Shown one piece after another: positions 1 to 3,987 of a stretch of 42,529 nt of DNA; within the stretch, counting starts at the first letter, position 1; every line of letters begins with the position of its first letter. This DNA is from Candidatus Cloacimonadota bacterium (GTDB lineage: Bacteria; Cloacimonadota; Cloacimonadia; Cloacimonadales; TCS61), in NCBI GenBank assembly GCA_021157525.1, contig JAGGWK010000055.1:1-42529 (forward strand), written 5' to 3'. Both the position numbers and the translations under genes were made by a program. The notes under the pieces are model-generated. The model was not told where the DNA came from and did no database searches. It saw nothing but the letters and a program-made list of their open reading frames with translations.

Positions 1-125
1 AAAAACAGTTTTTGGATTAAACAATAGCAACTGATATAGTAGCATTATCAATGTTGTTAGTATAAAAAGATATCTACTTGACTCAGTAATATTTTCAAAG
101 AAAAGTAATTAAAGGAGATTAAGAA

Positions 126-1343
126 ATGATAGAAGAAAAATATACGCAATTGTTTTTATCCCACCAAGTAAGAGGGATAACAACAATAGATGATACACAC
201 AAATTAGCAAATATTCAAAGACAAATTAAAATTATGAAAAGAACAATATTATTTGTAGTATTAGTATTATTTACCAACCTAATTATTGCTCAAGAACATA
301 AAGAATATTATAATGACGGTACCTTAAAAGTAGAAGGCCAATATGATGAAGGGTTTCAATCAGGAGAATGGAAAAATTATTATGAAGATGGACAACTGAA
401 AAGTATTGGCAATTATGAGAGTTATGGAGGGACAGAGAATGGAGATTGGGAATACTATTACGAAAATGGACAATTAAAAAGCATAGGGAACTTTATAAGT
501 GGCTTGCGAATTTCCGAATGGAAATACTATCATAGGAATGGTAAATTAGAAAGTAATGGTAGTTATGAATATGGAGAGGTAAAAGCTGGTGAATGGATTT
601 ACTATGATGATGAAGCAGGAATTATAAAAACGGAATTATGGGATGACGGAAAACTAATTGAGACGAAAACACCTTCTAAAGAAGTAGAAGAATTCAGTGA
701 ATATTATGATAATGGTCAATTAAAAGTAATTGGAAATACAAGAAATGGGCTACAAATAGGTGAATGGAAATCCTATTATGAGAATGGGCAATTAGGTGAT
801 ATTGTCACCTTCAGTAATGGATTAAGGCATGGTTTAGCGAAAGGTTTTTATGAAAACGGACAATTACGCGCTGTTGTGAATTTTGAAAATGGAAATGAAA
901 CAGGAGAAGGTAAAGAGTTTCACGAAAATGGGCAAGTAGCAAGTTTTGGGAAATTTGAAAATGGAACTAGAACAGGAGAATGGAAATATTATCACGAAAA
1001 TGGTCAATTAACGGCCATTGGGAAATATGAAAATGGAAAAGATGCTGGCGAATGGAAATACTATTATGAAAATGGCCAATTAAAAGCTATTGAGAAATGG
1101 GAAAATGATGTCCGATTAGGAGAATGGAAATTCTATCACGAAAATGGTCAATTAAGTCTTGTCATGAAATGGGAAAATGGAGTTGCAGCAGGAGAATGGA
1201 AAGAGTATTATGAAAATGGTCAATTAAGTCTTGTTAAAGAATTTGATGAATTTGGAATGTATGCTGGAGAATGGAAATACTATGATGAAAATGGAAAATT
1301 AACAAATACTGAAACTTATATTGAAGGCGTAAAACAAGAATAA
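126..1343 (+). CDS. YwqK/MORN_2 repeat protein, probably exported
   Basis: A 405-residue protein made almost entirely of about 14 repeats of roughly 23 residues of the form GEWKYYYENGQLKAIGKYENG-like (MORN_2, the repeat of 'YwqK family antitoxin' proteins). These repeats form beta-hairpin surfaces; no catalytic residues are visible and the function is unknown. The start is ambiguous. ATG 126 has a strong ribosome site (AAAGGAG, 111-117, 8 nt away). However, residue 37 (ATG 234, no ribosome site) begins a textbook signal peptide (MKRTILFVVLVLFTNLIIAQ), which would give a 369-residue exported protein. I keep 126 because of the ribosome site. The gene is clearly AT-rich compared with everything after 3 kb and lies beside an integron-like cassette, so horizontal acquisition is likely. 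Repeat proteins of this family are common in FCB genomes. The family name does not prove an antitoxin role, and no partner toxin is seen. Confidence 0.85.
   Translation: MIEEKYTQLFLSHQVRGITTIDDTHKLANIQRQIKIMKRTILFVVLVLFTNLIIAQEHKEYYNDGTLKVEGQYDEGFQSGEWKNYYEDGQLKSIGNYESYGGTENGDWEYYYENGQLKSIGNFISGLRISEWKYYHRNGKLESNGSYEYGEVKAGEWIYYDDEAGIIKTELWDDGKLIETKTPSKEVEEFSEYYDNGQLKVIGNTRNGLQIGEWKSYYENGQLGDIVTFSNGLRHGLAKGFYENGQLRAVVNFENGNETGEGKEFHENGQVASFGKFENGTRTGEWKYYHENGQLTAIGKYENGKDAGEWKYYYENGQLKAIEKWENDVRLGEWKFYHENGQLSLVMKWENGVAAGEWKEYYENGQLSLVKEFDEFGMYAGEWKYYDENGKLTNTETYIEGVKQE
700..1310 (+). repeat. Intragenic tandem repeats (about 69 bp period)
   Basis: The DNA of the YwqK-type gene repeats with a period close to 69 bp. 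The most uniform copies are between about 960 and 1250, where the string GAATGGAAATACTATTATGA and the string GAAAATGGTCAATTAA recur nearly unchanged. Low divergence between copies suggests recent unit duplication or gene conversion, so copy number may vary between strains. Confidence 0.7.
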
Positions 1344-1446
1344 CATTTGCTGACAATACATAAGCGACATTAAAATGACTGCTTATACAGAGCGTTGAAT
1401 AAACTGAAATATGCTTTAATTAGAGATTGATTTTTTTAAAGAATAG

Positions 1447-1571
1447 GCATAACAAGAATGCCTGCGGTTCAGTCGGGTGGTGTTTTTTGCCTGAACCTTC
1501 CGGTTCAGGGTTTTGGCTGTTCGTTTTGGCGAGATCATTCTGATCCCGCCGCATGCGCAAGACATTAGGCG
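1447..1571. other. Putative integron attC-like recombination site (long, structured)
   Basis: A stretch of about 125 bases rich in inverted repeats. An outer stem pairs 1460-1467 with 1549-1556 (7 of 8). Inside are a perfect 8-bp hairpin with a TTCC loop (1490-1497 with 1502-1509) and a 9-of-10 hairpin (1528-1537 with 1541-1550). The right end reads ACATTAGGC, one base off the attC core GTTRRRY. The left end GCATAAC is one base off RYYYAAC. The last 12 bases of the junction (TTAGGCGTTATT, 1565-1576) recur in perfect inverse complement directly after the stop codon of the next gene. Size and folding resemble attC sites, but neither core box matches fully, so it may be decayed or only a look-alike. 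Confidence 0.45.
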
Positions 1572-1592
1572 TTATTAAAATTAGGAGAAAAT

Positions 1593-2516
1593 ATGGCAAA
1601 ACCATCATTTATTTATGCTTTTGATAATTTAGGACCTGATAAATTCACAGAGTTATGTAATCTTCTACTTTCAAGCAAATTTAGAGGATATTGCGCTGGA
1701 GGAGTTGGTTCAGATGGAGGAGTTGACGGAGAACTCGATGTTAATTTAGGTTTTTGGATTCCTGAACAAGAATCACCTATAATCAATACAATAATACCCA
1801 AAAATAAAAAAGTTATATTTCAATTTAAGCATAAAACAACTGCCCGTGTAGGCCAAACCCAATCTAGGCAACAACTGATAAACCTATACGATAATCAGCA
1901 AAGTGAACTAGATAAACCTTTATTAAATAGTGATGATATTTATGCTTATGTACTTGTAACTAATGTAGAAGTCAATTCTAAATTTCGAAATAAATTTGTG
2001 ACAATCTGTAAAAATAAGAATAATAAAATTAAGCATTACCAAATAATCGGTTTAGATGATTTAGAGACTTGGGTTACAATGGAATCACAGATACGTCATA
2101 TGTTTTTCCCAACAATTTTTGGTATTCCAAGATATGATTTAAAGATAAATATATTGAGAAGTCACACATATCCAACTAATGATCTAGATAATGAGATTAA
2201 ACTTTTTACTGTTAACGTTTTAAATGTTGGAACTGTAACATCTTATATAAGTCATATTTATATAAGAGCAATTAAAAATGAAAAAAGCAATTATTTTCAA
2301 TTAGTGGAAGTTCCAGGGAGAGGTGGAATTGATTCTTTAAATCCAAAATTTGGAGCTCCATTAAAGCCTGGTCGAAAACATAGTTTCAATTATTATTTTT
2401 CAGTTATTTCGGATTTAATTAATGATGGCGAAATACCAGTTGAGATTGATGTAAGTGATGAAATTGGCAATCACTATACAGAAGAGATTGATTATGATTT
2501 CAGACAAAATATATGA
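1593..2516 (+). CDS. PD-(D/E)XK (Mrr-like) nuclease-domain protein with beta-rich C-terminus
   Basis: A 307-residue protein. The N-terminal 110 residues carry a restriction-endonuclease-fold signature: helix with E20 (FTEL), a glycine-rich turn GGVGSDGGVDGELD with D41/D45, and a strand ending Q77-F-K79, the QxK variant typical of Mrr-like nucleases. Residues 125-180 continue an alpha/beta fold. Residues about 190-307 look like an all-beta, immunoglobulin-like domain. The start has AGGAG at 1583-1587, 5 nt upstream. The gene is AT-rich, and it begins 28 nt after one copy of a 12-bp inverted repeat and stops immediately before the other, the compact layout of an integron cassette. Expected to cut or bind DNA, possibly in defence; target and partners are unknown. 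No methyltransferase gene is adjacent, so classical restriction-modification is unlikely. Confidence 0.75.
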   Translation: MAKPSFIYAFDNLGPDKFTELCNLLLSSKFRGYCAGGVGSDGGVDGELDVNLGFWIPEQESPIINTIIPKNKKVIFQFKHKTTARVGQTQSRQQLINLYDNQQSELDKPLLNSDDIYAYVLVTNVEVNSKFRNKFVTICKNKNNKIKHYQIIGLDDLETWVTMESQIRHMFFPTIFGIPRYDLKINILRSHTYPTNDLDNEIKLFTVNVLNVGTVTSYISHIYIRAIKNEKSNYFQLVEVPGRGGIDSLNPKFGAPLKPGRKHSFNYYFSVISDLINDGEIPVEIDVSDEIGNHYTEEIDYDFRQNI

Positions 2517-2522
2517 AATAAC

Positions 2523-2577
2523 GCCTAACATATCAAGAGTTTCCAGGCGTCACACATGCCGGGAAACACTGTTGAAC
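2523..2577 (+). other. Putative integron attC site
   Basis: Six bases after the nuclease stop codon. GCCTAAC (2523-2529) fits the attC R'' box RYYYAAC and GTTGAAC (2571-2577) fits the R' box GTTRRRY. Between them is an imperfect hairpin: 2539-2548 pairs with 2558-2567 in 9 of 10 positions with a 9-base loop. Total length 55 bp, near the short end of known attC sites. The preceding 12 bases (2517-2528) are the exact inverse complement of 1565-1576. No integrase gene is in the window, so mobility cannot be claimed. Confidence 0.5.
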
Positions 2578-3015
2578 AAGCGCGCAATGTAATTGGTTAT
2601 TTGAGGAGTGCTTTGGGTTAATGGAATCTATTAATGAGAGAATCACGCACAAACGAACATTTTCCCGATCCACTTTTCACTATTTTGCTTTCACTACTCA
2701 CCGGTATTGCCAAATACTTTTTCATCAGCGTAATTCACCGCTGTTACATTCGGGTTTCATCACTTTTTGGGCATAGTTCCACTCTTTGCGTAAATGCTGC
2801 ATTCAGGCAAATCGGGCTCCATCTTAGTTTGATGAAACCCAACTTTGGTTTTGCTGTACCAATTTCAACTGCCATTTTGTACCATTTTCAAATGCCACTA
2901 ATACATGTGCACCTGCGGTTGGGTTGCTTGGTTTGTTATTTGTACCCTTCGCTGCTTAATCTCATTGCGCCTTGGCGATCCTGGCGGTAAAAGAAGCATT
3001 AAACAGTATTGCAAT
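2578..3015. other. Gene-poor interval after the cassette
   Basis: About 440 bases in which I find no credible gene. A plus-strand open frame at 2634-2990 has Cys/His/Leu-rich, non-protein-like composition and no ribosome site. On the minus strand an open stretch (2955 down to 2827) without a start codon translates to plausible protein text (…AHVLVAFENGTKWQLKLV…) and may be a remnant of a decayed gene. No tRNA, repeat array or insertion sequence was recognised. Confidence 0.4.
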
Positions 3016-3048
3016 TTGACCACACACCAAAGTGGGCTACTTTATAAT
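3016..3048 (+). promoter_or_regulatory. Possible promoter of the msr gene
   Basis: TTGACC at 3016-3021 and TATAAT at 3043-3048 precede the msr start by about 30 nt. The 21-base spacer is longer than the normal 16-18 (TTTATA at 3041 would give 19), so this is tentative. Confidence 0.3.
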
Positions 3049-3075
3049 TATGGCTTAAAAAGTCGGGAGAGAGAT

Positions 3076-3987
3076 ATGATTCGGGCATGTATGCTGATGA
3101 TATTACTTTTTTCATCATTATGGGGTGAGGAGGAACTCATGAACGAGGGTAAATTAACACTGGAAGAACGACGGATAATTGTCAACAAAGGCACGGAAAC
3201 ACCCTATTCCGGGGAATTCACCAACTTGAAAGCGGAGGGTCTGTACACCTGCCGTCAATGCGGAGCACCACTCTACCGCTCCTTTGATAAGTTTGATTCG
3301 CAATGCGGCTGGCCCAGCTTTGACGACGAGATCGCCGGAGCAATCTTCCGCAGTTTGGATGCAGACGGGCATCGCATTGAGATATCCTGTGCATCCTGCA
3401 AAGGCCATCTTGGCCACGTATTTAACGACGAAGGTTTTACCGACAAAAACACACGGCACTGTGTCAATTCCATTTCTCTGAATTTTATTCCCATCGAAGA
3501 GCTGGAAATCGCCTATTTTGCCGGTGGTTGTTTCTGGGGTGTGGAATTTCAGATGCAAAAAGCTGCTGGCGTACTTTCCACCCGTGTAGGCTACATGGGA
3601 GGCAAAGAAGAAAACCCTGCCTACGAGGATGTGAGCAGTCACATCACCCACCATGCCGAGACAGTGGAAGTGATCTTCGATCCGCAAAAAACCAACTTTG
3701 AGACCTTAGCAAAACTCTTTTTTGAGACTCATGATCCCACACAGCTCAACCGGCAGGGGCCCGATATAGGAGCCCAATATCGCTCGGAGATATTTTTTAA
3801 TACTCCGGCCCAAAAAGCTACCGCAGAAACGCTTATAGGCATCCTTAAAGAGAAAGGCTATGATGTAGTAACCAAGATCACCGATGCCGCATCATACCCC
3901 TTCTGGAAAGGGGAAGTCTATCACCAAAATTATTACAACCGCCGTCAATCGATGCCCTACTGCCATTTTCACATCAAGCGGTTTTAG
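3076..3987 (+). CDS. msrBA: Fused peptide methionine sulfoxide reductase MsrB-MsrA
   Basis: A bifunctional repair enzyme of 303 residues that reduces both methionine sulfoxide epimers in proteins. MsrB comes first: zinc-site pairs C59/C62 (CRQC) and C105/C108 (CASC), GHLGHVF, and the catalytic C129 in RHCVNS. MsrA follows from about residue 145 with the catalytic C152 in GGCFWG and the terminal GEVYHQNYY motif. At ATG 3076 the protein starts with a signal-peptide-like segment (MIRACMLMILLFSSLWG), suggesting export to the periplasm. ATG 3139, preceded by GAGGAGG (3127-3133), would give a cytoplasmic form without it. I chose 3076 because the hydrophobic leader is intact and has GGAGAG upstream. 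It stands alone between the accessory segment and a bidirectional terminator. Confidence 0.93.
   Translation: MIRACMLMILLFSSLWGEEELMNEGKLTLEERRIIVNKGTETPYSGEFTNLKAEGLYTCRQCGAPLYRSFDKFDSQCGWPSFDDEIAGAIFRSLDADGHRIEISCASCKGHLGHVFNDEGFTDKNTRHCVNSISLNFIPIEELEIAYFAGGCFWGVEFQMQKAAGVLSTRVGYMGGKEENPAYEDVSSHITHHAETVEVIFDPQKTNFETLAKLFFETHDPTQLNRQGPDIGAQYRSEIFFNTPAQKATAETLIGILKEKGYDVVTKITDAASYPFWKGEVYHQNYYNRRQSMPYCHFHIKRF

Follow-up and report, generated by a model that had tools for sequence, protein, structure and literature searches.

Arrays of mostly single-gene cassettes are known from chromosomal integrons, for example the superintegron of Vibrio cholerae with its VCR sites. The Cloacimonadota arrays described here resemble these systems in this organization, in folded imperfect-palindrome sites, in complementary outer boxes, in a fixed insertion site at the array base and in a cargo rich in unknown and defence genes. 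They differ in the recombinase, which lacks the insertion of IntI and has an N-terminal extension, in the R' core, which is ATT and not GTT, and in the attI-like site, which is located 3' of the recombinase gene. The pdif sites are short double-stranded XerC/XerD sites between modules and are not known to have a platform, an attI or a folded site of ~120 bp. In the Xer-dependent pdif modules of Acinetobacter plasmids, gene modules are likewise moved by non-IntI tyrosine recombinases (PMC6449649). Treponema integrons possess a true IntI and GTT-type sites, unlike the Cloacimonadota arrays (PMC3607928). AAC and GTT are the sole conserved bases of attC (PMC2727003). A literature search, with subscription journals and preprints outside its coverage, found no report linking integrons with Cloacimonadota.

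The window, i.e. the whole analysed stretch of 42,529 nucleotides, contains one attC-like site and one split cassette; the contig stops before any platform. It is quite probable that the nuclease gene of this stretch is a cassette in an integron-like array with folded AAC...CATTA sites, a non-IntI recombinase and an attI-like site. The following features were assigned:

234 to 1343, plus strand: gene for a secreted MORN_2-repeat protein (PF07661, 8e-51), carried by the preceding cassette
1442 to 1453, plus strand: R''-like box AATAGGCATAAC of the preceding cassette, with TAAC at 1450-1453, the same position as TAAC in 111/120 repeats
1450 to 1567, plus strand: attC-like site A, TAAC ... CATTA (model R2, E 9.4e-30), multi-copy in Cloacimonadota, with covarying stems
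1565 to 1576, plus strand: 5' end TTAGGCGTTATT of the nuclease cassette, perfect complement of 2517-2528
1593 to 2516, plus strand: cassette gene, 307 aa, probable PD-(D/E)XK-type nuclease by motif and secondary-structure order only
2517 to 2529, plus strand: R''-like box AATAACGCCTAAC of the nuclease cassette, with 12-bp pairing to 1565-1576 and TAAC as in the repeat family
2530 to 2630 (right limit approximate), minus strand: remnant of an IS91-family ori end, hairpin and CTGTTGAACAAGC, at TAAC^; aligns with three full elements

The gene is bracketed by TTAGGCGTTATT (1565-1576) and its perfect inverse AATAACGCCTAA (2517-2528). Its ATG (1593) follows the 12-bp arm after 28 nt, and its stop (2516) is separated from the 3' arm by 0 nt. 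GCCTAAC is found at 2523-2529 and GTTGAAC at 2571-2577, with a hairpin between them. The inverted repeats, the gene spacing and the boxes had been reported in a preliminary description, and on re-check every coordinate was correct. Within 1-3100 this is the sole end pairing of at least 10 bp, and it was equalled by one of 2000 dinucleotide shuffles. The matching ends agree with the proposal that the gene is packaged as a cassette, which extends from 1565 to 2529. The repeat protein before the nuclease gene had been suspected to be a cassette as well, and the MORN_2 gene indeed represents the preceding one. That cassette begins left of the contig edge, and its predicted 5' end is TTATGCCTATT; the gene appears to start at 234, not 126, judging by the signal-peptide-like MKRTILFVVLVLF. 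The crossover of site A would lie between A1564 and T1565.

Two further observations concern the surroundings. At 111-205, a leader with the hairpin TTTTTATCCC...GGGATAACAA shows 89% identity to L089:6952-7046, directly after a tyrosine recombinase gene, and 73% identity to L055:6580-6463, within an array. A 118-aa ORF at 2634-2990, with the IS91 remnant on one side and the msrAB gene on the other, has no Pfam match and is probably decayed sequence.

The 307-aa protein contains the motif GGVDGELDV ... IFQFKHK. From this motif and the predicted strand order alone, it is probably a PD-(D/E)XK-type nuclease. No match was detected in Pfam, NCBIfam, PADLOC, plasmids, phages, viral contigs or 58 relatives, and no noteworthy match in the PDB. 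The single-sequence AlphaFold model had a mean pLDDT of 36 (low confidence), and its secondary structure alone was read.

Window positions 1446-1570 are one copy of a folded repeat of ~120 bp. BLAST searches had revealed the family before the covariance model R2 existed: positions 1440-1580, used as DNA query, matched 25 of 59 genomes including its own, with three matches there, up to 14 copies per genome and a frequent spacing of 0.8-1.5 kb. R2, which superseded a first structure model with 17 pairs (R1), detected the family in 45 of 123 Cloacimonadota genomes. It was built from 38 copies, and the upstream element of the window, scoring 106 bits (E about 9e-30), was among the training sequences. 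Named records with the repeat are Candidatus Cloacimonadota, including Ca. Tenebribacter, and an Rfam scan of 1-3200 gave no family matches. In the own genome, four clear attC-like sites and a weak one were found with R2. The copies are ~43 to 136 bp long, short and long forms being mixed within arrays, and share the layout N8-TAAC at the start and CATTA-N8 at the end. TAAC is present in 111 of 120 repeats, CATTA in 109 and CGTTA in two. Nine stem pairs have changed on both sides, and 49 covarying cells were counted compared with 18.5 in shuffles (0/500). The upstream site, which had been described as a larger folded element with degenerate core boxes, is an attC-type site and a member of this repeat family; the family deviates from the attC consensus in having CATTA in place of the GTT core.

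Folding of the bottom strand had been recommended as a check. The upstream element folds with z = -3.2 on the bottom and -2.5 on the top strand, and all 36 sites reconstructed in circular form fold at z < -2 (mean -4.7). The bottom strand is energetically favoured in 23 of these 36, i.e. there is no clear preference. In the model structure, one side of the outer stem carries a bulged base. When the bottom strand is folded, the A of CATTA permits a T.G wobble, as opposed to an A.C mismatch in the top strand, and we hypothesize that this asymmetry of the ATT core could help strand choice.

Four stretches in viral contigs showed the pattern and none was supported by R2; exact-pattern matches in genome contigs beyond Cloacimonadota were mostly due to chance. 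Among the non-Cloacimonadota scanned, one Neomarinimicrobiota MAG and one Atribacteria MAG only had a high R2 score. The Neomarinimicrobiota MAG contains the recombinase, with no recognisable attI-like site after it. In three genera, attC-like sites ending in CTTCTTG and not CATTA were observed (L051:919-1060, L274:8536-8662, L278:9234-9352), possibly distal array ends or secondary insertion sites.

The outer boxes define the unit of the arrays. Complementarity links the 3' N8 of each repeat to the 5' N8 of its successor rather than to its own 5' N8: pairing of at least 5 bp was found for 65% of 60 neighbour pairs, compared with 2% of random pairs and 3% within one site. Thus, the unit is TTA-N8 ... 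gene ... N8'-TAAC-repeat, and the attC is split between neighbours as in integron arrays. Most of the 43 cassettes analysed contain one ORF, few contain two or more, and the main ORF has the orientation of the site in 42 of them. The medians are 94.5% coding sequence, 34 nt before the start and 20 nt after the stop. The nuclease unit, with 28 nt before the gene, none after it and ends of 12 bp, fits this logic. The cargo comprises restriction-modification, AbiE-like, TIR, GmrSD-like and DUF4365 proteins as well as secreted proteins with C-terminal sorting tails. A search for more cassettes in relatives had been suggested; one-gene units were found there between consecutive repeats.

Searches of 123 genomes gave a non-IntI tyrosine recombinase in 22, and 18 of these also carry attC-like repeats (Fisher 2.3e-6); a strict attI-B pattern was detected in 17 genomes, all with repeats (17/17; Fisher 3.7e-9), these association tests being inflated by shared ancestry among the genomes. 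Neither recombinase nor attI-B was detected at the thresholds used in 20 of the 45 repeat-bearing genomes; the genomes are almost all fragmented metagenome assemblies. A conserved attI-like site follows ~75-130 bp downstream of the recombinase stop codon. It occurs in two forms, type A ending in ...ATATG^TTA and type B in CGGGGAYACANNCATTA, and the bases past the junction are typical cassette starts. At 14 loci the end of the first cassette matches a downstream R'' box, with 9-12 bp in 13 of them and 8 bp in L302. The recombinase gene is transcribed towards the array. Type B platforms have one intact enzyme, type A platforms an intact rec2 behind a rec1 from which catalytic residues have been lost.

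Comparison of platforms revealed similarities of 70-77% over 2-4 kb. Most of it ends near the cassette junction: counted from there, the last similar position is +3 in G033/G029, +4 in G033/G105, +30 in G033/G034 and -28 in G029/G105. Between G033 and G029 it spans a chromosomal gene, rec1, rec2 and the attI-like site. Several attI copies within G022 are 94-98% alike up to +3 and then unrelated. In the same genome, at least five attI-B sites (L323-L327) were observed with ~55-95 bp conserved, no recombinase upstream and a different first cassette start at each; platforms may multiply as such deleted derivatives.

The platform recombinases lack an insertion of ~42 columns that IntI proteins from this phylum possess. 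They are not part of the IntI clade, and their scores of 181-224 bits stay below the IntI cut-off of 265. The type B enzyme and rec2 of type A retain Arg, His-x-x-Arg, His and Tyr. In rec1, Ser/Thr replaces Arg I in seven of eight proteins, and Thr/Ser and Lys replace His and Arg II in all eight. Judged by these residues, rec1 should be a conserved but catalytically dead partner, presumably an accessory subunit. The N-terminal extension comprises ~85 residues, and its fold was predicted with fair confidence. A HARP domain was matched weakly in six of 16 members (best E 0.011), which is a lead only. XerA and the integron integrase IntI4 are the nearest solved structures.

For the own genome, the expectation that the cassettes lie without a nearby integrase was borne out: neither IntI above the cut-off nor an intact platform recombinase was found. 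Three attI-B sites and two internally deleted recombinase remnants (contigs C47 and C54) are present. The remnant of C47 (136 aa) consists of the start and the end of a type B enzyme, with ~200 residues missing between them; that of C54, a fusion shorter still, precedes an attI-B site by 111 bp. Both have a common 272-bp leader at 95%. Because of these deletion remnants and a last attC split by an IS91-type sequence, the own array is probably a relic, unless an assembly gap hides an intact copy of the recombinase.

The sequence that splits this attC was traced to full elements elsewhere. L088 (G023), L099 (G031) and L284 (G009) also contain the hairpin and CTGTTGAACAAGC that stand at 2530-2581 of the window. 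In these three loci the hairpin end follows an IS91-family transposase gene (NF033538; L088 scores 387.6 bits, cut-off 125), which is itself preceded by a tyrosine recombinase gene. The opposite end is GTTGAACTAAGCTGC in all three. The attC-like repeat, at TAAC^AA, was the only place where the full elements (L088:1798-3806, L099:197-2205, L284:88-2094) were detected. The window aligns with their ori ends over ~100 bp, with a score exceeding every shuffle, and all four aligned ori ends abut TAAC on the site strand. With the IS91 family these elements share the transposase NF033538, the hairpin ori end 3' of it and a short fixed target; they differ in the tyrosine recombinase gene and in being found only at TAAC^AA of the attC-like repeat. 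A precedent for attC-targeting insertion sequences exists in the IS1111-attC elements. The IS91 transposase is absent from the window, which holds an end remnant only. From the alignments we conclude that an IS91-type element entered the attC of the nuclease cassette at TAAC^AA and decayed later. The R'' box at 2517-2529 alone remains of this attC.

The 3' site (site B) had been taken for an attC in the preliminary description. The part of it that is cassette sequence is limited to the first 13 bases (2517-2529); the hairpin and GTTGAAC form the IS91-family ori end, and site B as a second attC lineage was abandoned after comparison with the IS91 ori ends. A true short attC of such a lineage (GCCTAAC ... 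GTTGAAC) would agree with the pattern RYYYAAC/GTTRRRY and with the 13-bp R''/R' pairing that a circle would give, and the element after site B in L088 has cassette-like ends, too. It is nevertheless very improbable, since the hairpin, CTGTTGAAyAAGC and ~30 bp more recur at the three IS91-family ori ends with unrelated flanks, and the joined flanks of each element restore an intact TAAC-AA(G/A)C, the start of an attC-like repeat. The perfect 12-bp inverted ends without a transposase also resemble a non-autonomous transposon with terminal inverted repeats. We give this reading hardly any credence, as the arm sequence varies between cassettes and sits at the edge of the attC-like repeat, and the pairing is that of neighbouring sites.

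An ordinary chromosomal integron, now an integrase-less attC cluster, is the more serious competitor, and still an unlikely one. IntI would have built the arrays, CATTA would be a harmless variant of GTT and the recombinases would be bystanders. Full IntI proteins do occur in the phylum, above the cut-off in seven of 125 genomes, five of them with repeats (Fisher 0.06, with the inflation stated above); in G033, canonical and CATTA sites follow a frameshifted intI, two family members have the core CGTTA, and according to NCBIfam and PDB IntI is one of the platform recombinase's closest relatives. However, 40 of the 45 repeat-bearing genomes lack IntI, its association is weak compared with those of the platform recombinase and attI-B, and the array base is a conserved site behind a non-IntI recombinase, with first cassettes whose ends match a downstream R'' box. 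An IntI-type integron, as implied by the attC layout first proposed, is therefore not favoured; since the arrays are associated with a recombinase other than IntI and the core of their sites departs from GTT, the array, which appears to work like an integron, is yet not classed as one.

Two loci with IntI were noted in addition. L097:1-1053 (G033:C175) contains the frameshifted IntI, a canonical-looking attC cassette and then CATTA-type arrays on the same contig; from this proximity, IntI may also act on CATTA sites. In L264 (G080:C59), read by eye, a true IntI lies beside apparent beta-lactamase and nucleotidyltransferase cassettes, and the locus may represent either a mobile integron or a contig from contamination.

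In the integron-like array favoured here, the two ends of a cassette are complementary to one another, as expected of an excised circle. The platform recombinase would recognise the attC-like site as a folded single strand. Cassettes would be joined at A/G^TTA to the attI-like site, and each would retain its own TTA-N8 end. On balance, we lean towards a second, IntI-independent class of integron, in which an N-extended (weakly HARP-like) recombinase, accompanied in one form by a dead paralogue, takes up gene cassettes at folded attC-type sites whose core is ATT.

Definitions of integrons, and searches for them, rely on IntI and on the GTT core of attC, and a system with neither could escape such searches. 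Cassette capture may have a second form that uses another recombinase and a slightly modified recombination site. If this is true, recombination of folded single-stranded sites would be possible without the IntI insertion, and the arrays would offer a natural comparison for the evolution of strand choice and site recognition. Because their cargo includes restriction-modification, AbiE-like, TIR and secreted proteins, the arrays may provide this uncultured phylum with a store of genes for defence and for the cell surface.
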